Source: an uncultured archaeon (GTDB lineage Archaea; Thermoproteota; Bathyarchaeia; TCS64). Taken from it: a stretch of DNA of 64,000 bases. The position numbers were made by a program, and so were the translations under genes. This document shows, in pieces, positions 8,998-23,835 of the stretch (position 1 is its first letter; each line of letters starts with the position of its first letter). The stretch spans positions 1 to 64,000 of the forward strand of contig CALIUM010000007.1 of the NCBI GenBank assembly GCA_938048735.1, in the 5' to 3' direction. The notes below the pieces were generated by a model. That model was not told the origin of the DNA. It did not search any database and worked only from the letters and a program-made list of their open reading frames with translations.

Positions 8998-10887
8998 TTG
9001 CCGTTTGGATATGCAGGTAAGGTCCTGCGGGTGGATCTCGAATACGGTAGGATTAGGGTTGAGGAGCCTTCGGAGAACTGGTATAGGATGTACCTCGGTG
9101 GGATGGGGGCCGTGGCCTACCACCTCCTCAGGGAGCTGGAGGTGGGGGTGGATCCCCTAAGCCCCGAGAACATCCTAATAATGGCTACTGGTGTCATAAC
9201 CGGAGCACCCTTCTCAGGGAGCGGACGCAACGCCGTGGGAGGGAAGTCCCCACTCACTGGGGGCTTCGGGGAATCGGATGTTGGGGGCTACTGGGGGGCT
9301 GAGCTTAAGCATGCGGGCTTCGACGCCATAATCTTCAAGGGGGCCTCGGAGGAGCCCGTCTGGCTCTGGGTCGAGGATGGCAAAGCCGAGCTCAGGGATG
9401 CCTCAAGCCTCTGGGGGCTCGAGGTTGGGGAATGCCAGGATAGGATGAGATTGGAGGTTGGGGAGCCCCAGGCCAAGACGGCCCTCATCGGGCCTGGGGG
9501 GGAGAGGCTGGTCAGGTTCGCCTCGGTGATCAACGATCTCAACCATGTGGCCGGCAGATGCGGTCTGGGGGCCGTGATGGGGTCTAAGAGGCTGAAGGGG
9601 GTGGCGGTGAGGGGGCATAACCCCCCGAAGGTTGCAGACCCAGAGAGGCTCAGGGAGCTCGCCAGGCTGGTAAACTCTAGGATACCGACGGAGGCCAGGA
9701 GCCTCCACGAGTATGGGACCGGGGCAGCTATGGACGCCTATATGGAGACAGGCAACCTCCCGACGAGGAACTTCAGGGATGGGGGCTTCAAGGAGGTCAC
9801 CGAGATAGACGCCATCGCGGTTAAAAACAGGTTTAGGGTCGGGATGGAGACCTGCTACGCCTGCGGGGTCCGATGCAAGAAGGTAGTCGAGCTGAAGGAG
9901 CCCTACATCGTCGAGGCGAGGTACGGAGGCCCCGAGTATGAGACCCTAGCAGCCCTAGGGTCAGACTGCGGGGTCTCGGACCTCGCCGCCATATGCAAGG
10001 CCAACGAGCTCTGCCAGAGGTATGGGCTGGATACGATAAGCACCGGGGCGACGATAGCCTTCGCCATGGAGTGCTACGAGAACAACATAATCTCCAAAGA
10101 GGATACAGGCGGGATCGACCTGAGGTTCGGGAATGCCGAGGCCATGGTCAAGATGGTTGAGATGATAGGGAGGAGGGAGGGCATAGGAGACCTCCTGGCT
10201 GAGGGGGTGAAGAGGGCCTCTGAGAGGCTTGGGGGAGGGGCTGAGGCCTACGCCATCCATGTGAAGGGGTTGGAGGTCCCCATGCATGAGCCCAGATTGA
10301 AGAAGGGCCTCGGCCTAGGCTACGCCGTCTGCCCGATGGGTGCGGATCACTGCGCAAACTTCCACGACACCTTCATGACGCCCGAAAACTACATGAGAGT
10401 CAGGCCCCTAGGAATCCTGGAGGAGGTTCCTGTCGATAGCCTGGGGGGAGAGAAGGTGCGGCTTTATAAGAGGTGGACTGAGATGAGGGTGGTTGCCAAC
10501 AGCCTATCCATCTGCCAGTTCCCCCCATGGAGGTTCTCGGAGTATGTCGACCTCGTCCAGGCTGTCACGGGTTGGGACATCTCGATGCTGGAGCTCGCGG
10601 AGGCGGCTGAGAGGATCCTAACCCTCGCCAGGCTTTTCAACATCAGGGAGGGCCTAACCTCGGCGGACGACTGGCTCCCGGAGAGGTTCTTCCAACCCCA
10701 GACCTCAGGCCCCCTATCCAAGAGGGCATTGGATCCAGGGGAGCTGAGGAGGGCCATAGACCTCTACTACGGGATGATGGGATGGGACAGGGATGGGATA
10801 CCCCTACCCGGAACCCTCCAAAGGCTCGGGATCGGGTGGGCCGAGATGCACCTCCCACTAAAGGGGACTGAGAGGCTGATAGTCTGA
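8998..10887 (+). CDS. aor: aldehyde:ferredoxin oxidoreductase (tungstopterin family)
   Basis: A 629-residue protein spanning the full AOR family. The N-terminal domain (about 1-210) has the pterin-binding GGKSPLTGGFGESDVGGYWG region. Domains 2-3 carry CYACGVRC (near 285) and further cysteines expected for the 4Fe-4S cluster, including CGVSD and the SICQFPPW region. Family members oxidise aldehydes to carboxylates, reducing ferredoxin, in the cytoplasm. The TTG start at 8998 gives the family-typical MPFGYAGKVLRVDL opening. The substrate cannot be inferred. It faces the membrane-fusion gene across a 226-bp divergent region that probably holds both promoters. Confidence 0.92.
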   Translation: MPFGYAGKVLRVDLEYGRIRVEEPSENWYRMYLGGMGAVAYHLLRELEVGVDPLSPENILIMATGVITGAPFSGSGRNAVGGKSPLTGGFGESDVGGYWGAELKHAGFDAIIFKGASEEPVWLWVEDGKAELRDASSLWGLEVGECQDRMRLEVGEPQAKTALIGPGGERLVRFASVINDLNHVAGRCGLGAVMGSKRLKGVAVRGHNPPKVADPERLRELARLVNSRIPTEARSLHEYGTGAAMDAYMETGNLPTRNFRDGGFKEVTEIDAIAVKNRFRVGMETCYACGVRCKKVVELKEPYIVEARYGGPEYETLAALGSDCGVSDLAAICKANELCQRYGLDTISTGATIAFAMECYENNIISKEDTGGIDLRFGNAEAMVKMVEMIGRREGIGDLLAEGVKRASERLGGGAEAYAIHVKGLEVPMHEPRLKKGLGLGYAVCPMGADHCANFHDTFMTPENYMRVRPLGILEEVPVDSLGGEKVRLYKRWTEMRVVANSLSICQFPPWRFSEYVDLVQAVTGWDISMLELAEAAERILTLARLFNIREGLTSADDWLPERFFQPQTSGPLSKRALDPGELRRAIDLYYGMMGWDRDGIPLPGTLQRLGIGWAEMHLPLKGTERLIV

Positions 10888-10899
10888 AAGGCCTCAGCC

Positions 10900-12442
10900 C
10901 TAAACCAGCTTTTTCAGGATGTCCATTTCCAGCTACGACGCCCCTCAGCCCCCTCCCATCAAGATCCTTTACAACATATACATGATCGGCTCTATATTTG
11001 ATCATCAGATCCATAACTTTTCCTATGCTTTCATTCTCCTTAACCATTATAGGGCTCCTTAAGGGCATAGAATTCAATGTAAGCCTCCTCTTATATTCAG
11101 GGATCTTTAGAATATCTTCTATTTCTATACATCCAATCAATGACCTAGATTCAGTTGCAACAGGATAAACTCTATAATTATGATGCTTCATTATGTTGAT
11201 TGCCTCATCTAAGCTCATCCCCTCAAGTAGAAAGACGGGGTTGGTGGTCATCACCTGAGCAACCTTAAGCTCCCTTAGGGTGTTGACCCTCTCCTTCTCC
11301 TTCAGGTTGTGGTAGAGAACCTCCACAGTCTCTTCCTCCTCCACCACTCGGTGGACTGGTTGAACATCTGATAGGAAGGTGGATTTTCCAGATGCGAAGT
11401 AGGCGGTGGTGGCCGAGATGAGGGATATCAGGAGGCTCAGGGGGAGATCCCCTCCATGGAGAAGCTCCCCTATCGTGTCATAGCCGAGGGTCTGGGGATA
11501 GGACCATCCTATTAATCCTAAAAGGAGCCCTCCAGTGATCGGGTTAAGGATCCTTACAGGGCCCTCTGAGACCAGCCTCCTCATAGACCCGAACAGGGCT
11601 GTGAAGGCTACTCCACATCCGGCCGCCATGAGGCCGAGGAGGAGGGCGTGGGAGACCATCAAGTATAATGGCTGGTTTGGATATGGGACCATCGGGAAGA
11701 TCGTCTCTGAGCCAAGAATACTTATCGAGATGAGGTAGGCCACCGAGGATGGGAAGGTGGCTGGTATGAAGGCCTCCCTAACAAGGTCCCTCTGGTATGG
11801 GATCTCGGATGGCGTGTAATATGCCCGTCAGGGGTGCCTTGAAGACCGCAGATATTCCTGCAGCCGCACCGGAGGGGAGGTATCTCCTCAACTCTTCATG
11901 TTAGACTCCAAGCCTTCTACAAATAGCCGATGCCACACCTCCACCCAGGAGGAGGCTGGGCCCCTCAAGGCCCGCACTTCCACCTAGGCCTATGGTAATG
12001 TCTGAGGCGATGGGCTTAACCAAGGTATCCCTCTCGGGTATGACCCCTTCACCATAGTGGTAGACCTCAAGCAGCTTGTGGGTTCCACATCCAGTTGTCT
12101 TCACCTCAGCCAGCCCCTTAATGAGAAGATATGCAATGGAAAGGCCTAAGACGGGCATGAAAGCCTGTAACGGCCTTCCTCATAGGCCGATGTGAAATTG
12201 GCCCAGATGTGGGTATATAGCCTCACAAACCCGACGGTGGAAAGCCCGACAGCTGAGCCTATGAGGCAGGAGCTCCCAATGATGGATCCATATCGGCCCA
12301 GCCTCAACCATTCAAAGGGCCTGTTCCCTTCGCGGCCCTCCTTGAGGTCGTCTCCTGAACCCCTCATCAACAGGTTTCTTGATGAGAAATAAACCAGCTT
12401 ATAAGTTATGCGCTGTAACGAACTTAAACCAATATCCCTCAT
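10900..12442 (-). pseudogene. ClC-type chloride channel with CBS pair, multiply broken
   Basis: The pieces add up to one ClC protein. The N-terminal membrane part starts at 12442. A frame change near 12150 precedes the selectivity-filter region (LGGSAGLEGPSLLLGG). An in-frame TAA lies at 11903-11901, a one-base insertion at about 11808 (before IPYQRDLVREAFIP), and the two-CBS tail (AQVMTTNPVFLLEG...) follows. Near 10930 another single-base insertion breaks the end: correcting it gives GVVAEMDILKKLV and a stop at 10900. There are three frameshifts and one nonsense codon in about 1.5 kb while the neighbours are intact, so this is a real pseudogene rather than general sequencing error. Confidence 0.85.
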
Positions 12443-12474
12443 CTTTAGAGGGAGGCTTGAATCTATACCCGTAT

Positions 12475-12876
12475 TTAAATATATTGCGCCCTTATTCCAA
12501 ACTCTTTCGCTACCTTAACTTGTCTCTCATCTCTTGATATTAATTCGGCTTTATGCTTTCTCGCTAATGCTATGTAAAGCGCATCATATATTGATACTTC
12601 ACCTTTCAAAGCTATATCAAACGATTCTCCTATTAGGGCTTCCTGATCCTCAATTTTAATGTTAATGTTTAGTAAAGAGTTCAGGGCCTCAAAAGCTTTT
12701 ATAGCTTCTTCAATTTTTATTCTATCCCTCCTATAAGCTTGTAAAATTGCATTGGAAACTTCTTTTAAGATTAATCCTACACTAATGACACCCTCTATTA
12801 TAAATTTTTTAATTTCTTCAAATTCTTCCTCTCTTAAGAGATATGCTGAAAGTGCTGAGGCATCAATGACTTTCAC
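12475..12876 (-). CDS. vapC: VapC-type PIN-domain toxin
   Basis: A 133-residue PIN ribonuclease. The N-terminal Asp is in VIDASALSAYLL (D5), the acidic mid residue in LILKEVSNAIL, and the C-terminal acidic residues in SIYDALYIALARKH and ELISRDERQV. It overlaps the upstream antitoxin gene by 14 bases, the usual VapBC arrangement. The pair is more AT-rich than its neighbours, consistent with acquisition. The RNA target is unknown. Confidence 0.88.
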   Translation of the reverse strand: MKVIDASALSAYLLREEEFEEIKKFIIEGVISVGLILKEVSNAILQAYRRDRIKIEEAIKAFEALNSLLNINIKIEDQEALIGESFDIALKGEVSIYDALYIALARKHKAELISRDERQVKVAKEFGIRAQYI

Positions 12877-13090
12877 GATCCTCCCTCACCAAGCGTGAAA
12901 TAGATCCCTTAGGCTGTATTGGCATATTTTTAAGAAGGTTCTCGACCACCTCGACATTTCTTACCCTTTCAAACTCTTCAATCTTCCTGACTATAAACTC
13001 CCTGATCTCCTTTGGCCAGTCAACCAAACCTTTGAGACCGTCCATCTTAACTTTAACCTCCCTTGGAACCTTAACGCTTACAACGCTCAC
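12863..13090 (-). CDS. vapB: VapB-type antitoxin
   Basis: About 75 residues. The N-terminal beta-strand/helix (SVVSVKVPREVKVKMDGLKG) and IREFIVRKIEEFER look like the RHH-type antitoxin VapB of crenarchaea, followed by a flexible tail that would wrap the toxin. I choose the GTG at 13090. A longer ATG frame from 13180 encodes an implausible Trp/Phe-rich N-terminus that reads through the promoter region. It is translated ahead of and overlapping vapC and probably autorepresses the pair. Confidence 0.75.
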   Translation of the reverse strand: MSVVSVKVPREVKVKMDGLKGLVDWPKEIREFIVRKIEEFERVRNVEVVENLLKNMPIQPKGSISRLVREDRESH

Positions 13091-13338
13091 GGAAGATCGG
13101 TATACGAATAGGTAAACCCAAAATATAATATTTATGTCTACCAGTCGAGCGGGCAACCCGCCCCTCTGCCATTCGGCCAACCGAGATGATCCTCAACTCC
13201 AATGGAGGCTCCCCAGGCAAAATTTGGGAGTGAAAACTGGAACACTTATATAACTAAAGTTAGGCGCCTTCGCCCTCGGCAAGATAATGGGTCGCTGGAA
13301 AAATGGGGTGGAGGGGTGCGGCTTGGGAGGCGATGTTC

Positions 13339-14733
13339 TCAGGATTTTCGGGGGAGATCGAACCTCTTCGCGGTCTCCCCTATGACCACCTCTAGGAGGT
13401 TTAGGCCCTCCTCCACCTGCTCTTCTGTTATTGTCAGGCAGGGCATCATCCTTATTATGCCTGTTCCAGGGCTTGTTCCGATGATCAGGCCCTTTTCCTT
13501 GGCCTTATCTGTGAGGTAGACCATGGGGTTGTGATTCGGGTCGAGACTCTGCTCGGGTGTTAAGCCCCTCGGGACAACATCATCCTTTGTCTCGGGGTTT
13601 GCCACGAGCTCCACCCCCATGAAGAGGCCTAGGCCTCTAATATCCCCGATTATCGGCTGCCTCTCCTGCATCCCCCTCAGCTCCTCCATCATGTGGGTTC
13701 CCATCTTGGCGGCCCTCTCGGCGAGCCTCTCCCTATAGTAGTATTCTATCACCGCTAGGGCTGTGGCGCATGCTAGGGCGTGGCCGCTGTATGTGTAGCC
13801 GTGGGGGAATCCCTTCTCGTCGAAGTGGTCCCCTATCTTCTTGTTCACGATGGTGGCCCCTAGGGGAACATAGCCCGAGGTTATCCCCTTCGCATAGGTC
13901 TCGATGTCTGGAATCACGTTCCAGTGCTCACATGCGAACATCCTACCAGTCCTCGCGAAGCCCGTCATCACCTCGTCGAAGATCAGGAGGATCCCCTTCT
14001 CGTCGCAGATCCTCCTCACCCTAGGCCAATAGTCTGGGGGTGGGACCACCTGACCAGCCCAGCTGCATATAGGCTCCGCCATGAAGGCAGCTATGAACCT
14101 CTCCCCCTCCTTCTCGATGGTGTATCTTATGAAATCAGCGCAAAGGAGGTCACAGTCCGGATAGGTCTTCTTGAAGGGGCACCTGTAACAGTATGGAGCG
14201 GGGACATGCTTGAACTCCTCAAAGATGCTTAGGCCTGGTAACTGCCTAGTACGGGCGCTTCCTCCTGCACTCATCGAGGCATAGGTGGAGCCATGATAGG
14301 CATCCCAGAAACTTATGATCTTGGGGGCTCCCCTATAGAGCTGAGCTAACTTTATCGCAGCCTCATTCGCCTCCGTCCCGCTGTTGCTGAAGAAAGATTT
14401 GCATAGGTCTCCTGGGGTTATCTGGGCCAGCCTCCTGGCCAGCTGTATCTGGGGGATGTTGAAGTAGCTGGGAGAAGAGTAGGCGAGTTCATCGAGCTGC
14501 CTCTTAGCGGCCTCGATGATCTCCCTGTTCCCGAGGCCTATATGGACATTATAAAGCTGAGAGATGAGATCTATGTACCTCTTACCTCTAGCATCATAGA
14601 AGTATGCCCCCTCACCCCACACGACTATAGGCTCCTCAACCCCTGGACGGGGCTCCCACCTCTGGATCAGGTAGGCCCTCGCGTCCTCGTAGAGGCGCTT
14701 CACCTCATCCTCGCTGAAATGCTTTTTACTCAT
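13339..14733 (-). CDS. class III PLP-dependent aminotransferase
   Basis: A 464-residue omega-aminotransferase. Landmarks are [15 protein letters not shown] (phosphate cup), the AYHGST motif, the [16 protein letters not shown]-ring Asp, and the Schiff-base Lys in [15 protein letters not shown] Cys-rich insertion ([17 protein letters not shown]) lies near residue 190 and may bind metal. Family members transfer amino groups from beta-alanine, taurine, GABA, putrescine or similar to pyruvate or 2-oxoglutarate; which one cannot be read from the sequence. It stands as a single gene, with an ATG start and short intergenic spaces. Confidence 0.9.
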
Positions 14734-14797: not shown

Positions 14798-15180
14798 TTA
14801 GGGGATATCCTCCGGAGCTCTTCTTTTAACCCAACTCACTGAGTCAAAATCGTCATCATATGAAACTATTGTTTCCATGGAAAGTTCTTTTAGAGCTTGA
14901 ACCGCGAGGGCATCGTCAAAATCCAAGCCATAATCCCTCATCAAGGAGGCAGCCCTTATCCGGCCTTTTAACCCCATGGGATAGATCTGGAGCCCCCTAT
15001 AGCGGAGGAGGGAGGCCAGGAGGAGGGCCAGCTCCTCCCAGGTTTTACCGTAATTCTCCATTACAACCAGGATCGAATCCATGTGAAAGTCTGTTATCGC
15101 CGACTTTATGGAGCCATCCCTCACCCTCTCAGGAATCGCTTACAAGCCTCTGCATGCTGCTCCGCCAAAGCCACTTCCAG
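14798..15180 (-). pseudogene. decayed PIN-domain gene
   Basis: The main frame (15124-14798) encodes the rear two thirds of a PIN domain (LDFDDALAVQALKELS and ETIVSYDDDFD carry the C-terminal acidic residues). The preceding frame encodes EVALAEQHAEACKRFLRG, which belongs directly before it, so the frame changes at a G-rich run near 15125. The expected N-terminus with the first catalytic Asp (DTNxFL) is not found upstream. The gene has lost its start and one active-site residue. Confidence 0.65.
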
Positions 15181-15342: not shown

Positions 15343-16320
15343 TCAACTAGGCACTTGAGTTGATGCCAGTTTCTGGAAGACTCTGTAGAACATGCTTGCG
15401 TTCAAAGTTTGTAGGGCTGCAGATACAGCTATAGGGAGGGCCGCCATCTGGCCGAAGGATGCAAATGCTATGCCCATAGCAAGGGGGAGGTGCTTCATTC
15501 CTGAACTATAGACGATCGCATTTATCTCCTTAAGGGGTAAGCGCATAATCCTTGCGGATATCAGGTAGGCTCCTCCAAAGGCTAATGGAAAGAGGATTGC
15601 AGGCATAACTATCAGCGATAAAATCGAGGACGGGTTTGGTGGTATTAGAGCTACATTCATAGCCAGCATAGAGAACATGAGGAGCATGGCTGTAATGGCT
15701 GATATAGATGGGAAGATGTGGAGGTATCTTGTTATATCTTTTCCAAGTCTGAGGTCTAATACATGCCTTGTTAGTATTCCGAGGATGAGTGGTATAGCTA
15801 AGGCCATAGCTATGATTCTGAGCATTTCAAGAACGCTGACCTTTACATAGGCCCCTGCTAGAAGGGCTGTTAAGCCCGGTATGGTCACTATACCAAGAAT
15901 CATCGTTATGGCAGCTAGGATTAAGGCAAGAGGGACATCCCCTTTGAGGAGGCCTGTCCAAACCACATTCATCCCTGCGCAGGGAACTGTGCCCATCAAA
16001 ATGAAGCCAACAGCCCAAATAGGCTCATGGGAAAGAAAGGCGGCAGCCAACAGAAAACATAAGGCCGGTAGAAAGGCAAAGTTCAGAAGTAGCCCGCAAA
16101 TTATCTGCTTCACCTTCCTTGTAACAAGCAGAAGCTCCTTAAACCTTATAGTCACACACATAGCCCAAACCATGACGCTGATCAAAGGGAGCATGTAAGG
16201 CTTCAACACCTGAACAGGCTTAGGAGCAATTAAACCCGTTATTAATCCTAGAACAACCATGGAGAAAACAAGATACGAGTAGTTTTTCTGTATAGAAGCT
16301 GTAATCTTTTCGCTAATCAT
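15343..16320 (-). CDS. ACR3/bile-acid:sodium symporter-family transporter
   Basis: A 325-residue inner-membrane protein with about ten transmembrane segments. The conserved cysteine region reads GTVPCAGMNVVWTGLLKGDVPLAL, resembling the ACR3 arsenite exporter motif (Cys followed by the VW..L.KGD pattern). A second family region, YSSGMKHLPLAMGIAFASFG, occurs near residue 270. This suits arsenite or related metalloid efflux, but the BASS family also transports organic anions, so the substrate is inferred mainly from the neighbouring ArsR, ArsP-like and thioredoxin-fold genes. It is transcribed away from that group, as a single gene. Confidence 0.75.
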   Translation of the reverse strand: MISEKITASIQKNYSYLVFSMVVLGLITGLIAPKPVQVLKPYMLPLISVMVWAMCVTIRFKELLLVTRKVKQIICGLLLNFAFLPALCFLLAAAFLSHEPIWAVGFILMGTVPCAGMNVVWTGLLKGDVPLALILAAITMILGIVTIPGLTALLAGAYVKVSVLEMLRIIAMALAIPLILGILTRHVLDLRLGKDITRYLHIFPSISAITAMLLMFSMLAMNVALIPPNPSSILSLIVMPAILFPLAFGGAYLISARIMRLPLKEINAIVYSSGMKHLPLAMGIAFASFGQMAALPIAVSAALQTLNASMFYRVFQKLASTQVPS

Positions 16321-16742
16321 CCCTTTCCATCGTCCTACAACCAGTTATATATTTTTTTATCTATATTTAAACCCGGCAGCATTCGGCTCTGATCCCCGCC
16401 TCATGAATCTCACTCAATCCTCTAGTCCATGGAAGAGCATACTATGAGACCTGAGATAGAAGCCCTTTTCGAAGACCGTGTTCAGCGAGCCCCTGCCATA
16501 GCCGTAGAGCCTCATAACGGCCTCCCTGAGCCTCAAGCTTGTAAGGCATGGAAACCTTAATTCCTCTCACCTACATTGTAAATTACTGAAGGGATGAAGA
16601 CCTTTATCTTCGGTCACCCGGATGTGAAAAATAAGAAGGGATAAATCATATATTAAAATTGTTAGATTAATCCAGAGCAGCAGCCAAAAATGTCATCTAA
16701 CGAATTCTTTTTTTCAGATATCGATAGATTTTCTAACTCTCT
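16321..16742. other. intergenic region with a possible antitoxin relic
   Basis: The ACR3-side end (16330-16370) is AT-rich, with a run of T and TATATTT that could be that gene's promoter. The middle is GC-richer and holds the reading-frame relic described separately. 16600-16740 is AT-rich with no gene seen. Confidence 0.4.
16414..16560 (-). pseudogene. possible relic of an RHH-type antitoxin
   Basis: On the minus strand one frame reads LREAVMRLYGYGRGSLNTVF and then EKGFYLRSHSMLFHGLED before a stop at 16414. Another frame just upstream starts VRGIKVSMP. Joined, they resemble small archaeal antitoxins (strand, helix, then the LYGYGRGSL tail motif seen in PIN-partner proteins). The frame is broken and there is no toxin next to it. 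Evidence is limited to pattern resemblance. Confidence 0.3.
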
Positions 16743-17312
16743 TTAAATTTTGAGGCCCTTATAATATCTTGTGCTCGGACAACCCAAACACTTATTTTCA
16801 TTATATCTAAGACACTTTCCGCAATTTAAGCCGCAAGGTGTATCCTCATCAAATTTATTAGCGAAAAGTCTTACTGGTATATATTTAGGTAAATCTGGAG
16901 TTTCACCTATTATCACCTCGGAGCGTCTAATTCCCTTATAAACTCTTATCGAGCAAACCTCAACCATCGATCTTAGTGTATCAATATCTTCTGCGATCAT
17001 AATCACCATCAAATTATATTCTCCAGTTGTTCTTGTTATAAAAATGACTCTCGGACATTCATAAAATATCTTAATAAGCTCTCTAAATATTTCATAAGTT
17101 TCAACTTCACAATTTATTATTAAAATTCTGAAACCGAGTTTTTCCAGATTAATCCCAGCAAACACATTAATGACATTTGATCTCTTCAGGTTTTCCAACC
17201 TGTTTCTTATGGAGACGTGGGAGAGGCCTAGCCTCCTTCCAATGGAGCTGAGAGAGGCCCTCCCATCCTCAAGCAGCATGAAATAGATCTTCCTATCGAC
17301 CTCGTCCATCAT
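16743..17312 (-). CDS. Lrp/AsnC-type regulator with Cys-rich C-terminal tail
   Basis: A 189-residue protein. Residues 1-55 form the Lrp HTH (DEVDRKIYFMLLEDGRASLS and LGLSHVSIRNRLENL). Residues 60-140 form a ligand-binding RAM-like region. The last 35 residues carry DTPCGLNCGKC and NKCLGC, four to five cysteines fit to bind a metal or an Fe-S cluster. The tail suggests a metal or redox sensor rather than an amino-acid sensor. A perfect palindrome sits at its own start, and a near-identical one sits before the radical SAM gene, so it probably regulates itself and the island. It is AT-rich compared with flanking regions. Confidence 0.8.
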   Translation of the reverse strand: MMDEVDRKIYFMLLEDGRASLSSIGRRLGLSHVSIRNRLENLKRSNVINVFAGINLEKLGFRILIINCEVETYEIFRELIKIFYECPRVIFITRTTGEYNLMVIMIAEDIDTLRSMVEVCSIRVYKGIRRSEVIIGETPDLPKYIPVRLFANKFDEDTPCGLNCGKCLRYNENKCLGCPSTRYYKGLKI

Positions 17313-17314
17313 TT

Positions 17315-17329
17315 CTTACATTTTGTAAG
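17315..17329. promoter_or_regulatory. palindromic operator CTTACATTTTGTAAG
   Basis: A perfect inverted repeat CTTACA-TTT-TGTAAG lies 2 bp from the start codon of the Lrp-type gene and just upstream of a TATA-like run (about 17333-17344) facing the rightward genes. Its 13-bp core TTACATTTTGTAA recurs with one change at 18445-18457. Binding here would block the regulator's own transcription and possibly the divergent unit. Confidence 0.65.
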
Positions 17330-17375
17330 GAAAGATATATATAACCTTCTTCTTTCGATAAAAGAAGTCTGAGAA

Positions 17376-17582
17376 ATGTTTGAGACTGAAGATAGAATAG
17401 TTGGCTCAACGAAAATTGAAGATGTTCTGCGGAGAGATGTTGTTTCTGTAACATCACGGGCTAAGGCGTTGGGCGTTGTTCCTGGAATGTCGGGGAGCGA
17501 GGGTCTCGAAAAAATGAACGTTAAAAAATCAATGAAAAAAGAAGGGGGTAAAATTAATGATAGAAATCAAAATCGCTGGTAA
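17376..17582 (+). CDS. small hypothetical protein
   Basis: A 68-residue frame begins 47 bases downstream of the palindrome and about 32 bases after a TATA-like sequence. It overlaps the next gene by 26 bases. The product is charged, with a Lys-rich end (NVKKSMKKEGGKI), and no family is recognised. It may be a real small leader gene or the fused remnant of a longer one. The spacing to the TATA-like box is the best argument that it is expressed. Confidence 0.35.
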   Translation: MFETEDRIVGSTKIEDVLRRDVVSVTSRAKALGVVPGMSGSEGLEKMNVKKSMKKEGGKINDRNQNRW

Positions 17583-18093
17583 AACCCCTTGTCTCCTTGA
17601 GCCAAGAAAACTACAGATCACCGCCCAGGCGAATGAACCCTTAGATGAGGTTCTCCCCATCCTCTATCTGGCTATACCTCATTCCCAGTACTCGAAGGCC
17701 TTCGGCTCCGTAACCTTCCTTTTGGAGGGGAAGCTCGTAACCGTTTACTCTTCTGGAAAGATCAATCTCGGCTGCGTTTTTAGAGAGGAGATCGCAGTAA
17801 AACTTCTGGAAAAATTAAAAAATTTACTTTTAAAGGCTTTAGAGTATTATGAGAAGCATGGTGCCCCAGACCCAAAGCTTTTAGAGGTTAGAAAAAAGCT
17901 TAACCCAATTGAAATATACAGCTATCTACCAAAAACAAACTGCAAAGAATGTGGTGAACAGGGATGCTTCGCCTTTGCCGCAAAACTCGCAAATGGAGAG
18001 AAAACCCTGCAAGATTGTCCTAAAATACAATTACCCCAATATATCAACAACAAGACATATCTTGAGAAAATGTTGCAACCGATAAAATTATAG
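17557..18093 (+). CDS. iron-sulfur protein: novel N-terminal domain plus CFeSP-type 4Fe-4S motif (paralog 1)
   Basis: A 178-residue protein. Residues 1-100 form an alpha/beta domain (PCLLEPRKLQITAQA, FGSVTFLLEGKLVTVYSSGKI). Residues 123-152 carry NCKECGEQGC and 16 residues later another Cys followed by Pro: C-x2-C-x4-C-x16-C, the pattern of the small 4Fe-4S domain of corrinoid iron-sulfur proteins. The N-terminal segment with SSGKINLGC and a following helix faintly resembles a TBP half-repeat. The same two-domain layout recurs at 23200-23835. It is probably an electron carrier or redox sensor serving the adjacent radical SAM enzyme. Confidence 0.7.
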   Translation: MIEIKIAGKTPCLLEPRKLQITAQANEPLDEVLPILYLAIPHSQYSKAFGSVTFLLEGKLVTVYSSGKINLGCVFREEIAVKLLEKLKNLLLKALEYYEKHGAPDPKLLEVRKKLNPIEIYSYLPKTNCKECGEQGCFAFAAKLANGEKTLQDCPKIQLPQYINNKTYLEKMLQPIKL

Positions 18094-18444
18094 AATAATG
18101 CTTGACACAGATTCTTATTATGAAAAGAGAGAAAAAGGGTTAAAATTATAAGGATATCAAAAAATGAATTGTTGATGCAAAGCGATGCTTCATGAATAAT
18201 CTAACAGGGTTGGCTGCGGTGGAAAAAGGTTTGAAGAGAGATAGTTAGAATATGCTCATTACCAGATTTGTAAACAACATTTCGAGAAAATAAATACTTA
18301 TTAATAAAATCTAAAAAAGGATCTTTATTTTGTTTTCTATATAAATGTCAAGAAAAATGCTTGGAAATATCGGAATTAAATATGAGAGGAGAGGCCTACG
18401 ATCTCGAAGGATAAAAGATTCACTCCCTCCTAGTCCAATCTAAG

Positions 18445-18457
18445 TTACAATTTGTAA
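18445..18457. promoter_or_regulatory. palindromic operator TTACAATTTGTAA
   Basis: A perfect 6-1-6 palindrome that differs from the 13-bp core at 17316-17328 by one base. It lies about 30 bases upstream of the TATA box of the radical SAM/SPASM gene, where an activator would bind. The shared site links this gene to the Lrp-type regulator. Confidence 0.6.
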
Positions 18458-18485
18458 TAAAAATCATTCAAATTTTAACAAAAAG

Positions 18486-18496
18486 TTTATATAAAT
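18486..18496 (+). promoter_or_regulatory. TATA box for the radical SAM/SPASM gene
   Basis: TTTATATAAAT ends 18 bases before the ATG at 18515. At the archaeal TATA-to-start spacing of about 25 bases, transcription would begin at or next to the start codon, giving a leaderless mRNA. Confidence 0.55.
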
Positions 18497-18514
18497 CAAT
18501 TAAAAAATTTAATA

Positions 18515-19942
18515 ATGTCATTGTCTGTGGAAGTTTTTCTCTCCTTCTTGGAGAACCCTCTCAAAAGGCTCATGATTCGCTCTTCTATATCTCCTAAAAC
18601 TGGGAGAAACTCTTTAGAATCTGCGTTAAATTTGTTGATTGGAAACAAGGCTTCATATTCTTTGAATGAAATCATCTTATCAAAGATAATTAGTTTGGTT
18701 CTAAATTTTGGATTTTTTGCTTTCGATATCAATAAAAGGGATGCTATTAAAGCCCTTAAAATCCCATACTTTAGAAATGGTTTATTAAATGTTATAGATA
18801 GTATAAGTAAATATGGTGTAAATAAACCATTGGTGCTTTCATCACCCTTTCTTGTGGTTTGGAATTATACTAATGCCTGTAATCTTAGGTGTAAGCATTG
18901 TTATCAAAGCGCAGGTGGGCCTTCTCCAGATGAGCTGACAACAGAGGAGAGGTTTAGGATCGTTGATCAGTTAAGTGAGAACAAGGTCTCAGCCCTGGCA
19001 TTCTCTGGAGGAGAGCCATTAATTAGGGAGGATCTATTTAGAGTTGCAAGATATGCCCATGAAAGGGGTCTCTATGTCTCAATAGCTACGAATGGAACTT
19101 TGCTCAATGATAATGTGTTAGAAAAACTTAAGGATAGTTGTGTTGACTACATAGAGATAAGTCTTGATTCTTCAAAGGAAGAGATTCATGATTCGTTCAG
19201 GGGTGTAAGGGGAGCATTTAAGAGAACTTTACGGGGAATAAAAAATGCTGTCGAAAAAAGATTTTATACATGTATTGCTATAACTGCTACAAAAAATAAC
19301 CTTTATGAAATTCCTGATATAATTAACATTGCTAAGGAAATTGGTGTTAAGAGAGTTATAGTTTTCAATTTCATACCTACTGGAAGAGGTAAAGAAATCG
19401 AAGATCTTGACCTATCCCCAACACAAAGGGAAGATCTTCTTAAATACTTATATGAGGTGCTGACTGAGGGGCGAATAGAGGTCCTCTCCACCGCCCCCCA
19501 ATACTCAAGGGTCTGTCTGCAGCAATCCATCGCAACCATGAGGGATCTCCTCGCCCCAACCCACTTCTCGGCCCTCTCCTTCCACGGGAGGACAAAGAGG
19601 TTGGCAGGCTTCTTAGGAGGGTGCGGTGCGGGAAGGCTTTACTGCGCAATCCAGCCCAATGGTTTGGTAACCCCCTGCGTCTTCATGCCGATAGTTGTCG
19701 GCGATCTCAGGAATCAAAGTCTGAAGGAGGTCTGGCTGAACTCGAGGGTTATGAACGACCTGAGAGACAGGAACCGGCTTAGAGGAAGGTGTAGAAACTG
19801 CAAATATAGAGATATCTGCGGTGGTTGTAGAGCCAGGGCATACGCATATTATGGGGACTATCTAGCACCCGATCCAGGATGTATAAGGGAACTGGAGGAA
19901 CCAAGCATCCAGTACTTAAAATCTCAGCCGAGCCTAATATAA
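18515..19942 (+). CDS. radical SAM/SPASM enzyme with extra N-terminal domain
   Basis: A 475-residue protein. Residues 1-115 form a family-specific N-terminal region. The radical SAM motif is CNLRCKHC (near 127-134) with SGGEPL (near 168). The C-terminal SPASM region has cysteines in GGCGAGRLYC, PCVFMP and CRNCKYRDICGGC. The relatives it recalls include AhbC/AhbD haem-synthesis and PqqE-type peptide-modifying enzymes; the substrate is unknown. The gene is compositionally split: AT-rich to about 19450, clearly GC-rich after it, with an uninterrupted frame. It sits beside ArsR and Fe-S paralog 1 under a promoter carrying the shared palindrome. Confidence 0.85.
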   Translation: MSLSVEVFLSFLENPLKRLMIRSSISPKTGRNSLESALNLLIGNKASYSLNEIILSKIISLVLNFGFFAFDINKRDAIKALKIPYFRNGLLNVIDSISKYGVNKPLVLSSPFLVVWNYTNACNLRCKHCYQSAGGPSPDELTTEERFRIVDQLSENKVSALAFSGGEPLIREDLFRVARYAHERGLYVSIATNGTLLNDNVLEKLKDSCVDYIEISLDSSKEEIHDSFRGVRGAFKRTLRGIKNAVEKRFYTCIAITATKNNLYEIPDIINIAKEIGVKRVIVFNFIPTGRGKEIEDLDLSPTQREDLLKYLYEVLTEGRIEVLSTAPQYSRVCLQQSIATMRDLLAPTHFSALSFHGRTKRLAGFLGGCGAGRLYCAIQPNGLVTPCVFMPIVVGDLRNQSLKEVWLNSRVMNDLRDRNRLRGRCRNCKYRDICGGCRARAYAYYGDYLAPDPGCIRELEEPSIQYLKSQPSLI

Positions 19943-20068
19943 TTATTTTTATCTCCCAGAAATTAAACTCGAAACCGAATGTCTTATCGAAATAAGAGAA
20001 TGAATATTCATAGCTTCAAACACATTAAACATCTTATTTATGATGCTCCATTTCAGGAAACTATCTCT

Positions 20069-20464
20069 TTAAATAGTTTGGATGAGTTGCTGAATATTTT
20101 TCATCAATTCAGACCTTGAAATGGTGTAGAAGTTCCATTTGCCCCTTCTCCTTTCCTCAATCAATCCAGCATTTTCAAGTATATTTAAATGATGGGAGAT
20201 ATTTGGCTGCGCAACATTTAATATTATCACTAATTCGCAAACACACATATCATATTTATTTAAGATACTTAGAATTTTTATCCTTGTAGGATGTGATAAT
20301 GCCTTAAAAATTCTACTAACTCTACCTATATTTTCTCTAATGCTAAAAACATCATCTTTAAGTTCCCTCAATCTTTCTTTATATTTATCGAAGTTATTAA
20401 TGTCGAGTAGGCCAGATTCAAACAGTCTTTTTAATTGTTCATCTAAAGCAAAGTCTTCAACCAA
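20069..20464 (-). CDS. arsR: ArsR-family metal-responsive repressor
   Basis: A 131-residue winged-helix protein. An N-terminal helical extension (1-45) precedes the core LSHPTRIKILSILNKYDMCVCELVIILNVAQPNISHHLNILENAGLIEERR. The CVC pair in the position of the classical ELCVCDL motif is the As(III)/Cd-sensing site, and QPNISHHLN is the recognition helix. It is divergent from the thioredoxin/permease operon, from which it is now separated by an insertion sequence relic. A motif upstream of it recurs in front of that operon. Confidence 0.88.
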   Translation of the reverse strand: MVEDFALDEQLKRLFESGLLDINNFDKYKERLRELKDDVFSIRENIGRVSRIFKALSHPTRIKILSILNKYDMCVCELVIILNVAQPNISHHLNILENAGLIEERRRGKWNFYTISRSELMKNIQQLIQTI

Positions 20465-20510
20465 TTCCGATTCCCCATATTCATATCAATCAAAATTAGA
20501 TTAAAAACAA

Positions 20511-20532
20511 TGAATTTAAATATTTCGATTCA
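20511..20532. promoter_or_regulatory. candidate ArsR operator, copy A
   Basis: The segment shares ATTTAAATAT and, two or three bases on, GATTCA with 21347-21368 (18 of 22 positions equal). It is flanked by an imperfect inverted pair TGAAT/ATTCA and lies about 50 bases upstream of the arsR start codon, in its promoter. Confidence 0.5.
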
Positions 20533-20617
20533 ATGGGGGTAAAGTCTCGGATGATACAAAGTCCCTCAACTACTTATAGCCTAGAGCCATATGGCCTCCA
20601 CCGAGCTGATGTAAAAA

Positions 20618-21335
20618 CAGTACTGTCAAATTATCTTCTTAGGGGGACTTTGAACCGCTTTTTTGTAGGTGATGCCCATCGAATGGCTCCTTGAAGCCCT
20701 TAAGGATGGTGGTTTATTCAAGCGTGATAGGTTTTCGCCGGGGGTGAAGGTTAGGGGCTGTTCTGCTTCACATGGCTGGCTTGAGCTACAGGGACATAAC
20801 CTACGTTCTACTGGTTGTTCCATGCAGCCTGAGGCTTTGGGTTAAGAAGCTGGAGCAGGTGACAGTCAACGTTGAGGCTAACCTAGGCGTATGATAGCCG
20901 TCGACGAGACTAAGATCAAGGCTGACGGCGAGTGGTGCTATGTTTGGGCTGCAATCGACGTGGCCACGCGTGGACTTCTCGCGGTATGGGTCTCCCGGCA
21001 GAGGAACATCCTCCACGCGGAAGCCTTCCTGAAGGAGTGCTGCAGACATGCACAGACAAGCAGTCATACTCGTAGATAAAGCCCTGGTACCCCGAGGCAC
21101 TCAAAACCCTCGGACTTGAATGGGCTAACAAACCTTCGACGAGAGAAACCGCATGGAGCGCAGGTTCAGAACATGAAAGCACGGACTAAGCGGTTCTTCA
21201 ACAACCTCCAAGTCAGATAAAAGCCCATCTTCAAGAACAAACTCACCATAAGGCTCTTCGCCCTATAGTACAACTTCATGACCCCACCAAACCCTAAAGA
21301 GACCACCAGCAACGCCAATAACTTGACAGTGTCGA
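20618..21335 (+). mobile_element. IS6-like insertion sequence relic
   Basis: About 718 bp bounded by imperfect inverted repeats. The left end contains ACTGTCAAATTAT (near 20622) and the right end, reverse-complemented, ACTGTCAAGTTAT (21318-21330). The interior encodes fragments of an archaeal DDE transposase. Size and content match IS6-type elements common in thermophilic archaea. It lies between arsR and the thioredoxin/permease operon, splitting what was probably one divergent promoter region. Confidence 0.75.
20671..21290 (+). pseudogene. IS6-type DDE transposase, broken
   Basis: The fragments appear in order across frames. MPIEWLLEALKDGG begins the first frame. A second frame reads AVLLHMAGLSYRDITYVLL and then LRLWVKKLEQVTVNVEA. 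At 20891 a third begins MIAVDETKIKADGEWCYVWA, with the first catalytic Asp, and continues to FLKECCRHAQ. Beyond 21060 another frame reads MHRQAVILVDKALVPRGTQ. At least three frame changes and several stops show it is inactive. Confidence 0.8.
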
Positions 21336-21346
21336 AAACATATCAA

Positions 21347-21368
21347 AAGATTTAAATATCTTGATTCA
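21347..21368. promoter_or_regulatory. candidate ArsR operator, copy B
   Basis: This is the partner of the motif at 20511-20532, placed 12 bases beyond the right end of the IS relic and about 40-65 bases before the first gene of the thioredoxin/permease operon. Its TTTAAATAT part could serve as the TATA box, so a bound repressor would occlude the promoter. Confidence 0.5.
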
Positions 21369-21407
21369 GGTAAGAGAGAAAGCCGACCCAAGAGGCGTTG
21401 TCGATAG

Positions 21408-21809
21408 ATGGGCATTTTACCAGGCGGTGGTCGAATGTCGTTGAGGGGAAGGGTGAAAGTTGAGATATATGAGGGCGATCCCTTCGTGGGTTGTTGCGGG
21501 CCGGGAATTGCCTCTAAGGAGGATGTGAATAATTTGAGAAAGATGCTTATAGAAAGAAATTATATAGTAAGAACTTTAAAAGAAGAATTTAAGGATAAGA
21601 TCGAGATTGAAAGGGATATAATAAGCAGTCGGAGGCGGATTGAAACATATCCAAGGCACATCTATAAGCTTCTAGCAGCTGGTGTCAGGGTTCCATTCGT
21701 CGTTATAGAGGGCCGGCTAGTGCTGGAGGGGGAATTCCCATCCCTCGAGGGGTTCAGACGCCTCATAAATGAGCATGTTAAGAGTCTTCCTTCAGACCCT
21801 CCTGTTTAA
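21408..21809 (+). CDS. thioredoxin-fold protein with CCGPG motif
   Basis: A 133-residue protein; an internal ATG at 21435 is an equally good start. A beta strand VKVEIYEGDPF leads to VGCCGPGIAS, a vicinal Cys pair at the position of a thioredoxin active site. Later GVRVPFVVIEGRLVLEGEFP gives the cis-Pro strand and hairpin. Vicinal cysteines suit binding of soft metals or As(III), as in ArsD-like chaperones, but overall similarity to ArsD is not clear. It is first in the operon with the second thioredoxin-fold gene (15-base gap) and the permease. Confidence 0.65.
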   Translation: MGILPGGGRMSLRGRVKVEIYEGDPFVGCCGPGIASKEDVNNLRKMLIERNYIVRTLKEEFKDKIEIERDIISSRRRIETYPRHIYKLLAAGVRVPFVVIEGRLVLEGEFPSLEGFRRLINEHVKSLPSDPPV

Positions 21810-21824
21810 AGGGCTGGTGGTCTT

Positions 21825-22106
21825 ATGAAGAAGATTGTTGCTGAGGTGCTTGGCCCAAACCCGCCCTGTTATACCTGTATATTGCTCAAGAAAAACGTGG
21901 AGGCTGCCGCCAAGAGGCTTAAGGCTGATGGGATAGAGGTTGAGGTGAAGAGGCTGGACATAATCTCGAGGGAGGCCATTAGGAAATATGGCCTGCTCCT
22001 CTCCCCAGCTTTAACGGTTAATGGGGTCGTCGTGAGCATGGGCTGGGTGCCTGATGATGATGTCGTCGAGGATATCCTTAGGGAGGCTGCGAGTAAGCAA
22101 TCCTGA
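21825..22106 (+). CDS. small thioredoxin-like protein (CYTC active site)
   Basis: A 93-residue protein of the MTH895-type small thioredoxin group. The active-site CYTC motif is in NPPCYTCILLKKNVEAA, and the cis-Pro loop in YGLLLSPALTVNGVVVSMG. It would shuttle electrons to a disulfide or a bound metalloid. Proteins of this type are regularly encoded next to ArsP-type permeases and ArsR regulators. It lies 9 bases upstream of the permease gene, so the two are cotranscribed. Confidence 0.85.
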   Translation: MKKIVAEVLGPNPPCYTCILLKKNVEAAAKRLKADGIEVEVKRLDIISREAIRKYGLLLSPALTVNGVVVSMGWVPDDDVVEDILREAASKQS

Positions 22107-22115
22107 GGTGAGAGT

Positions 22116-23147
22116 TTGAATGGTGTGAGAATCCTCAGAACGGGCTTCCTGCTGGGCTTTGTCTTAGCCGTTTTCGGAAGCCTGATCTACTCTAGGATCA
22201 TGGCATACTCCCTAGCGCCGACCATGAAGCCCGCTCACTTCCAGGGGATGAGCCCTTGGGAGATACCCGTAGCATACATAGTAGACTATCTAAGCCATGG
22301 TTGGCTCTGCCTCCTCTTCGCCTTCGTGGCCGCAGGCCTCGTCTACGAGTTTATGCCGAAGGAGGTGATAACTAGGTACATGGGCAGCAGTAGAGCCATG
22401 GGCTATGCTTTAGGTGCGGGGATTGCCCCCTTCTTCACGGTCTGCTCATGCACCATGGTCCCCCTCTTCGCAGGCATACTCTACACCGGTGCGGGGATTG
22501 GCCCTGCCATAACCTTCCTCCTAATGGCTCCAGCATCTAACATATTAACCATCCTGCTTACAGGGGAGATCCTCTCATGGGAACTTGCAATCGTCCGAGT
22601 GATAGCATCCCTAACAACCGCGGTTGTGGCTGGTCTAATAATCTCGAGGACACCCTGGGGGAGGGCGATTGAGATGGAGCATCACCCCACGGGTCAAAAC
22701 CCCCAGCATAATATTCAGATCATCAAGCTACCCCTTGATGAGAGGCTGTTGGCAGCCTTAAAGTTTAGCCTCTACCTTGCCAAGAGGATCCTACCATACT
22801 TCTTCCTGGGCCTCGTTGTGGTCAGCTATGTAGAGGCCTACATGGCTGAGGATATCGTGGCCAAATACCTGACGGGGTTCAGTGGAATCCTCCTCGCCTC
22901 CGTCATTGGGGGACCCCTATATACTCCCACCCTCGTCGAGATAGTCCTGGGAAGAGGCCTCATGGATCTTGGGATGTCAAAGGGGGCGATGCTCTCTTGG
23001 CTTATGGGCCAGCCATATGATATCCCCAACATGATCGCAACCTCCAGAATAGTGAGGTGGAAGGTAGTGGTTACCTATGCAGTGATAGCGTGGATCTTCA
23101 GCGTCTCATTCGGCTTAACCTACGGCCTTCTCTCAAAATCACTATAA
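22116..23147 (+). CDS. ArsP/YraQ-type permease (DUF318)
   Basis: A 343-residue membrane protein with about ten hydrophobic segments and two related halves. The hallmark ALGAGIAPFFTVCSCTMVPL is followed by a conserved MAPASNILTI region; the second half carries GGPLYTPTLVEI and LMGQPYDIPNM. The Cys-Ser-Cys motif is thought to contact organoarsenicals in ArsP. The start is TTG at 22116. With the two thioredoxin-fold genes and ArsR it forms an arsenic-type export operon; the substrate (methylarsenite or other thiophile) is not determined. Confidence 0.85.
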   Translation: MNGVRILRTGFLLGFVLAVFGSLIYSRIMAYSLAPTMKPAHFQGMSPWEIPVAYIVDYLSHGWLCLLFAFVAAGLVYEFMPKEVITRYMGSSRAMGYALGAGIAPFFTVCSCTMVPLFAGILYTGAGIGPAITFLLMAPASNILTILLTGEILSWELAIVRVIASLTTAVVAGLIISRTPWGRAIEMEHHPTGQNPQHNIQIIKLPLDERLLAALKFSLYLAKRILPYFFLGLVVVSYVEAYMAEDIVAKYLTGFSGILLASVIGGPLYTPTLVEIVLGRGLMDLGMSKGAMLSWLMGQPYDIPNMIATSRIVRWKVVVTYAVIAWIFSVSFGLTYGLLSKSL

Positions 23148-23199
23148 AATATATAAATAAAAGGGGAAATAAACATCAATAGAAAATATTTGATAAAGG

Positions 23200-23835
23200 A
23201 TGAATGAGATAGATATTTTCAAGAAGATGCTGGAGGCCGAGGAGAGGAGAAAGAGGATAGAGAGGTCTCTAGTCAAGAGGATAGAGATAAGGGAGGTTCT
23301 ACCCTGCCTGACAACCCCTGGATATATCAGGTTCACAGCCATGGCTGATAGGGAGATTGGGGAGATCATCTCCCTCATCTTCCTCAAATTTCCGCCCGGG
23401 AGGTCACACTACAACCCCGCCGAGGGGACGCTGACCCTGAACATCTATAATAGGATGATAACCCTCCACCCAGATGGAATGATCGCCGTCACCAATACAA
23501 GGGATCTCCAGGAGGCGGGTGAGGTTCTCGAGAAGATAAAGGGTCTCATAAATGAGGCTTGCTCAACCTATCTCCGAAGTGGGCCGCCAAGCGAGGATGC
23601 GGTGGAGGCAGCCATGAGGGTCTCATGGACGGATATATACAGACACCTCCCGAAGACCAACTGCGGGGAATGCGGATACCCAACATGCCAGGCTCTAGCC
23701 CTCAAGGCCCTGCTGGGGGATGCCAGGCTCTCCCAGTGTCCAAAGCTGAGAGAGGCCGAATATCTCCCCTCTCGGAGAGAGCTGAAAAGGGGCCTCGGCC
23801 CATTTTTAACCAAGGCTTTAGGATTAGAACTATAA
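23200..23835 (+). CDS. iron-sulfur protein: novel N-terminal domain plus CFeSP-type 4Fe-4S motif (paralog 2)
   Basis: A 211-residue protein. After a charged helix (1-28), residues 30-120 align by eye with the N-terminal domain of the protein at 17557-18093 (PCLTTPGYIRFTAMA with PCLLEPRKLQITAQA; IYNRMITLHPDGMIAV with LEGKLVTVYSSGKINL). Then DIYRHLPKTNCGECGYPTC and, 16 residues later, a Cys-Pro repeat the C-x2-C-x4-C-x16-C 4Fe-4S site. A TATA-like run (about 23150) suggests its own promoter. It lies 52 bases after the permease and may be an electron donor or a redox sensor. Confidence 0.7.
   Translation: MNEIDIFKKMLEAEERRKRIERSLVKRIEIREVLPCLTTPGYIRFTAMADREIGEIISLIFLKFPPGRSHYNPAEGTLTLNIYNRMITLHPDGMIAVTNTRDLQEAGEVLEKIKGLINEACSTYLRSGPPSEDAVEAAMRVSWTDIYRHLPKTNCGECGYPTCQALALKALLGDARLSQCPKLREAEYLPSRRELKRGLGPFLTKALGLEL

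Follow-up and report, generated by a model that had tools for sequence, protein, structure and literature searches.

A TBP-fold, CFeSP-type iron-sulfur protein family in the arsenic islands of archaea

Comparison with described systems

The described systems closest to the locus reported here are arsenic (ars) operons, the large subunit of the corrinoid iron-sulfur protein (CFeSP; CdhD/AcsC) and the TATA-binding protein (TBP). The locus is an arsenic-type gene island at positions 15343-23835 of a 64,000-nucleotide stretch of DNA (the window) from an uncultured archaeon; it encodes two iron-sulfur (Fe-S) proteins, FeS1 and FeS2. The genome with the island is archaeal, 1.6 Mb in size and of hot-spring origin; its nearest named relatives are Bathyarchaeota metagenome-assembled genomes (MAGs). 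None of the three elements (ars islands, the TBP fold, the CFeSP domain) is new. The libraries and literature searched revealed no conserved family that combines the two domains within ars islands, and no paper linking a TBP-like domain to iron-sulfur in archaea was retrieved.

The island shares with ars operons (ArsR, ArsD, ArsP, ACR3) a metalloregulator, a thiol metallochaperone, and ArsP and ACR3-like efflux genes; its ArsR-type regulator lies beside the arsenic efflux genes. In contrast to ars operons, it adds two TBP-fold Fe-S proteins, and there is no arsenate reductase gene within the window island. In relatives, the clusters also encode ferredoxins as well as DUF169 and DGC proteins. 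ArsC/LMW-PTP-like genes are found in the relatives' clusters L043, L056 and L059.

The FeS proteins share the N-terminal PF04060 domain and the cysteine spacing of the CFeSP large subunit. Unlike that subunit, they have neither a TIM-barrel nor a corrinoid-binding domain; they end after the 4Fe-4S domain and carry a TBP repeat instead. The N-terminal domain shares the fold of TBP and has detectable homology to one TBP repeat. In contrast to TBP of the general transcription machinery, which has two repeats and conserved Asn/Phe contacts, the FeS proteins have a single repeat with an extra N-terminal strand and a loop containing an invariant cysteine; this repeat keeps the DNA contacts incompletely and is fused to an Fe-S domain. 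TBP repeats are known from transcription initiation and from a few DNA-repair enzymes. Single TBP-domain proteins reportedly occur in some archaea.

SAO and Tso are selenoprotein systems of Haft and co-workers, as cited in PMC13188914. The loci show weak profile matches to a SaoE-type permease, TsoX/TsoC-like small thioredoxins and a TsoR-like ArsR. In contrast to SAO and Tso, cysteine stands in place of selenocysteine, and no Sao or Tso marker gene scores above its cut-off (SaoE 81 against 325 for the permease; TsoX 33 against 52 for a relative's small thioredoxin).

Architecture of the FeS proteins

Families were assigned with Pfam and NCBIfam profile models at their curated cut-offs. FeS1 and FeS2 are true paralogs with 31% identity across 175 amino acids (E=1e-31). 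Among the genome-wide PF04060 matches, they are the only full-length family members in the window's genome. The other PF04060 proteins of the genome are a CdhD-like protein (470 aa) and a MobB-FeS protein; the latter has no TBP-domain match and was ruled out as a third family member.

An earlier sequence-only reading of this DNA had described two paralogs with a CFeSP-like C-x2-C-x4-C-x16-C site. The exact spacing is present in both proteins, and the likeness to CFeSP is supported by PF04060 (53 bits for FeS1 and 47 bits for FeS2; cut-off 23) and by Foldseek. The C-terminal ~60 residues correspond to PF04060 and resemble the N-terminal 4Fe-4S domain of CFeSP. In FeS1 this domain spans approximately residues 113-175 and aligns with CFeSP structures 4c1n, 2ycl and 4djd at 42-54% identity over 41-59 columns. 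An NF003195 match of the FeS protein spans only ~60 of 450 positions.

No model in Pfam or NCBIfam covers the N-terminal ~100 residues; a fold can now be assigned to this domain. Profile and model comparisons identify it as a single TBP repeat (approximately residues 1-104 in FeS1). When a profile of 17 N-terminal sequences was searched against all PDB sequences (hmmsearch), the 22 best matches were all TBPs (best E=2.9e-8); the same profile also weakly retrieved genuine TBPs from other archaeal genomes. In profile-profile comparison (hhalign), TBP reached a probability of 80.5%, and none of seven control families taken from these loci exceeded 1.8%. The AlphaFold models have pLDDT values of 90.7 (FeS1) and 84.7 (FeS2). 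Foldseek matches the FeS1 model to CFeSP (4c1n/2ycl) and TBP (1ais/2z8u), and the FeS2 model to CFeSP (2ycl) and TBP (1ais/1mp9), in each case with probability 1.00. The E-values for the TBP matches are modest (0.003-0.03); consequently, the TBP assignment rests on the sequence-profile result. Profile search and structure prediction, two of the checks proposed earlier, both point to the TBP fold.

Five cysteines are invariant in all full-length members (46/46). Four are the presumed cluster ligands; the fifth, Cys12, is located in a loop of the TBP domain. Some FeS members (L054, L055, L111, L116 and L117) have an additional N-terminal domain of ~180 residues and lie beside DsrE/F/H or TauE; no Pfam family matched this extra domain in L054, which served as the test case.

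Distribution and gene neighbourhood

These proteins define a TBP-fold/CFeSP-type Fe-S family which is found in many archaeal genera and in a clostridial member, and which is placed in arsenic operons. The arrangement of the domains, the invariance of five cysteines and the recurrent place of the genes in operons are established, and both the family and its arsenic context can be regarded with high confidence.

A full-length FeS member is present in 30 of the 251 genomes of the class, and the permease ArsP in 40. The two occur together in 17 genomes (Fisher odds ratio 11.3, p=2.9e-8, uncorrected for phylogeny), and in all 17 they are separated by no more than 5 kb. ArsP copies linked to FeS genes in relatives are 60-90% identical to the window permease. 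Across 48 family loci, the genes found within 9 kb of FeS include ArsR (30 loci), ArsP (21), small thioredoxins (21), ferredoxin (18), DGC (10) and ACR3-type transporters (9). Locus genes were called simply as longest open reading frames (ORFs) and took their names from BLAST matches to representatives; any one neighbour count may therefore err slightly, by a few loci.

A recurring layout has ArsP-Trx divergent from ArsR-Trx-Trx-ferredoxin-(DUF169)-FeS-ArsR-USP-ACR3. Ferredoxin lies upstream of FeS in seven loci and ArsR downstream in nine, in each case co-directional and less than 200 bp away; DUF169, DGC and DsrE are further neighbours of this kind. Overlapping or near-overlapping gene ends are seen between FeS and DUF169, DGC, DsrE or ArsR. 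One relative's ACR3 neighbour is a true ACR3 (328 bits, cut-off 283).

A profile search with FeS1 alone retrieved 13 loci from genome contigs, all in archaeal MAGs (Bathyarchaeota, Nezhaarchaeota and 'Nitrososphaeria'). The clostridial member belongs to Acetoanaerobium noterae (L165, 8959-9495; 132 bits with the full-length profile); its 2.6 Mb record is a plasmid by label and a chromosome by look. Carriage by viruses was rejected: no relative of the family was found among viral contigs, and a phage match to the FeS protein spans the Fe-S motif only.

Comparison with the sister genome G028 shows that gene content in the island is plastic while the FeS-ArsR-Trx-ArsP core is not. Two features of the window are not matched in G028: a decayed IS240 transposase, and the ACR3-like gene, of which G028 has flanking remnants only. 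Conversely, G028 has a DGC gene and a pair of molybdopterin oxidoreductase genes that the window lacks. In G028 the molybdopterin oxidoreductase and its 4Fe-4S subunit (L035, 1417-4701) lie between Lrp and FeS1; such a pair also adjoins the radical SAM gene in L059. The oxidoreductase of G028 has no equivalent in the window's genome.

Proposed role of the island

The explanation that we favour, tentatively, is that the island is an arsenic (soft-metalloid/thiophile) redox-and-efflux cluster whose TBP-fold Fe-S protein hands low-potential electrons on to thiol proteins. In its favour are the TBP and CFeSP domains, the five invariant cysteines, the co-occurrence with ArsP, the closely spaced ferredoxin and ArsR neighbours, the true ACR3, ArsC-like and small thioredoxin genes in clusters of relatives, and the cysteine desulfurase family gene next to the bacterial member. 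Sensing would be provided by ArsR and probably also by the Cys-tailed Lrp; the ArsD-like and ArsE-like proteins would act as thiol chaperones, and ArsP and the ACR3-like transporter would carry out efflux. Ferredoxin would supply low-potential electrons to the FeS [4Fe-4S] cluster. From the cluster, electrons may reach the thioredoxin-fold proteins, and further cysteine proteins encoded with them, by way of the invariant fifth cysteine or close to it; metalloid and thiol groups would thereby be kept reduced and exportable. The TBP fold may serve as a docking or dimer platform. With about the same caution, we suggest that a TBP repeat was recruited into a prokaryotic Fe-S family (archaea and Clostridia), to act either as a DNA-bound sensor that detects thiophilic metalloids by means of its cluster or as a new ferredoxin-driven thiol/metalloid reductase. 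Two things become testable: a coupling of low-potential ferredoxin metabolism to metalloid detoxification in anaerobic archaea, and a role for TBP-fold modules beyond transcription and DNA repair.

A number of observations weigh against the electron-relay explanation. No ferredoxin gene adjoins FeS1 or FeS2 in the window, and the lone extra cysteine of FeS differs from the usual disulfide-reductase arrangement. ArsP is absent from more than half of the family loci, and several FeS loci contain no island gene at all (e.g. G064, whose protein is 81% identical to FeS1). The FeS-ArsP co-occurrence test ignores phylogeny. Some other FeS subfamilies have DsrE/DsrF/DsrH neighbours, or TauE together with a Cys-tailed Lrp; sulfur rather than arsenic is therefore indicated for these.

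Alternative explanations

The main rival, which is possible but on balance unlikely, is that FeS1 and FeS2 are Fe-S cluster sensors whose DNA-binding domain derives from TBP. If the cluster were lost, or if a metalloid attacked the invariant cysteine, DNA binding would change and expression of the island would be tuned accordingly. Such a role is consistent with the homology of the N-terminal domain to TBP, with the aromatic-x-S-G-K turn of TBP, which is largely retained in the family, and with the position of FeS directly before ArsR in nine loci. In contrast, the signature DNA-contact Asn and first intercalating Phe of TBP are not conserved, and each cluster already has one or two ArsR genes. 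The pI of the FeS proteins (~8.7) is similar to that of the Lrp proteins, but local ferredoxins likewise have a pI of ~9. The sensor explanation is further weakened by the existence of a bacterial FeS member, since bacteria are without TBP-based transcription.

Somewhat less likely still is a family function in handling sulfane sulfur or selenium (persulfide transfer or reduction), in which case the arsenic link would reflect the thioarsenic chemistry of sulfidic springs. DsrE/DsrF/DsrH-type genes are found near FeS in five loci, mostly overlapping or abutting it, and TauE exporters in six; the Acetoanaerobium noterae FeS gene lies 24 bp downstream of a cysteine desulfurase gene (TIGR01977; 476 bits, cut-off 377). 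However, the sulfur-linked cases mostly belong to other subfamilies while the neighbours of FeS1-type members are mainly ars genes, and no sulfurtransferase gene is found within the window island.

The sequence-only reading had proposed that the Fe-S proteins may supply electrons to either the radical SAM enzyme or some methyl-metalloid reaction, in a system that makes and exports organometalloids; this is now improbable. The FeS and radical SAM genes are adjacent in the window and in G028, and ArsP homologs are exporters of trivalent methylarsenicals. However, orthologs of the enzyme are mostly found elsewhere. The expected linkage of FeS to ArsR and ArsP is conserved; the radical SAM gene, in contrast, lies beside FeS in only three loci (the window, G028 and G002), and the partnership was rejected as a general rule. 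Nine class genomes have orthologs with 55% identity or more, and the wider family (E<=1e-75) is found in 130 of 251. One ortholog is in an ars island without FeS (L146 of G017), and the other thirteen neighbourhoods examined contain neither ArsR nor ArsP. The enzyme is probably an independent, lineage-local neighbour.

The window's genome contains no ArsM above cut-off and no MtrA, and organometalloid synthesis is therefore unsupported; the FeS proteins have no corrinoid domain, and corrinoid methyl transfer was rejected for this genome. The ars island of L146, from the same taxonomic family, has both the radical SAM ortholog and a ferredoxin-MtrA fusion (12423-13415; PF04208, a corrinoid methyltransferase subunit domain, 3e-38), but no FeS gene. 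The fusion is the sole hint of methyl transfer.

Least probable of all, the FeS genes could be general maintenance genes hitchhiking in a plastic island, as several orphan FeS loci and the differing gene content of the sister genomes might suggest; the FeS-ArsP spacing, kept in 17 of 17 genomes across many genera, and the overlapping gene ends in several loci weigh against this.

Other genes of the island

The nine ORFs listed for the island were confirmed at their coordinates (Table 1). Its arsenic-type character is supported by ArsR and ArsP_1, both of which score above cut-off, and the identities first given to the Lrp regulator, the radical SAM/SPASM enzyme, ArsR and the ArsP-like permease also hold. 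Three assignments were refined: those of the ACR3-like transporter, of one thioredoxin-fold protein and of the radical SAM enzyme.

Table 1. Features of the island, with strand and supporting profile matches
Feature	Position	Strand	Evidence
SBF/BASS-superfamily transporter, ACR3-like	15343..16320	-	PF01758 1.2e-30
Lrp/AsnC regulator, C-terminal Cys-rich tail	16743..17312	-	PF13404 2e-10
FeS1, single TBP-fold repeat + CFeSP-type 4Fe-4S domain	17557..18093	+	PF04060 2.8e-14
Radical SAM/SPASM enzyme	18515..19942	+	PF04055 3e-31, PF13186 2e-11
ArsR/SmtB metalloregulator	20069..20464	-	NF033788 95.5 bits, cut-off 55
Decayed IS240-type transposase	20640..21330	.	PF13610 4.9e-11; not in G028
ArsD-like thioredoxin-fold protein	21408..21809	+	NF033727 ArsD 9e-4, PF06953 0.019
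MTH895/ArsE-like small thioredoxin	21825..22106	+	TIGR00412 9e-10, PF13192 1e-9
ArsP_1-family permease	22116..23147	+	PF03773 4.9e-46, 158 bits, above cut-off
FeS2, TBP-fold + CFeSP-type 4Fe-4S protein	23200..23835	+	PF04060 2.2e-12

The transporter first described as ACR3-like belongs to the SBF/BASS-ACR3 superfamily and retains the P-C-x-G-M-x-x-V-W signature. It is not a true ACR3; its score with the ACR3 model TIGR00832 (79 bits) is far below the equivalog cut-off (282.8), and the name 'ACR3-like' is used for this reason. A true ACR3 (310 bits) is located elsewhere in the genome, at G000:C5:59774-60736, with no island genes around it.

Of the two genes described earlier as encoding thioredoxin-fold proteins, the second is a small thioredoxin. 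The first is closest, weakly, to the metallochaperone ArsD; it retains the vicinal cysteine pair 'GCCGPG', and its homolog L146_13 matches PF06953 at 7e-4. FeS2 starts 52 bp past ArsP. The IS240-type transposase splits ArsR from the ArsD/Trx/ArsP/FeS2 operon, which is presumably under the control of ArsR.

The Cys-rich tail of the Lrp regulator, CGLNCGKCLRYNENKCLGCPST, has the pattern C-x3-C-x2-C-x8-C-x2-C and is kept in relatives (L039, L041, L057 and L063). The radical SAM enzyme is nearest to the AhbD/TIGR04053/NirJ families; it does not reach their equivalog cut-offs (AhbD 304/500, NirJ2 276/500, NirJ 220/515 and TIGR04053 284/395 bits).

Adjoining the island, two PIN-domain (VapC-like) genes (12475-12876 and 14798-15124) flank an aminotransferase gene. 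A voltage-gated chloride channel with CBS domains, at 10643-12442, is seemingly split over several reading frames.

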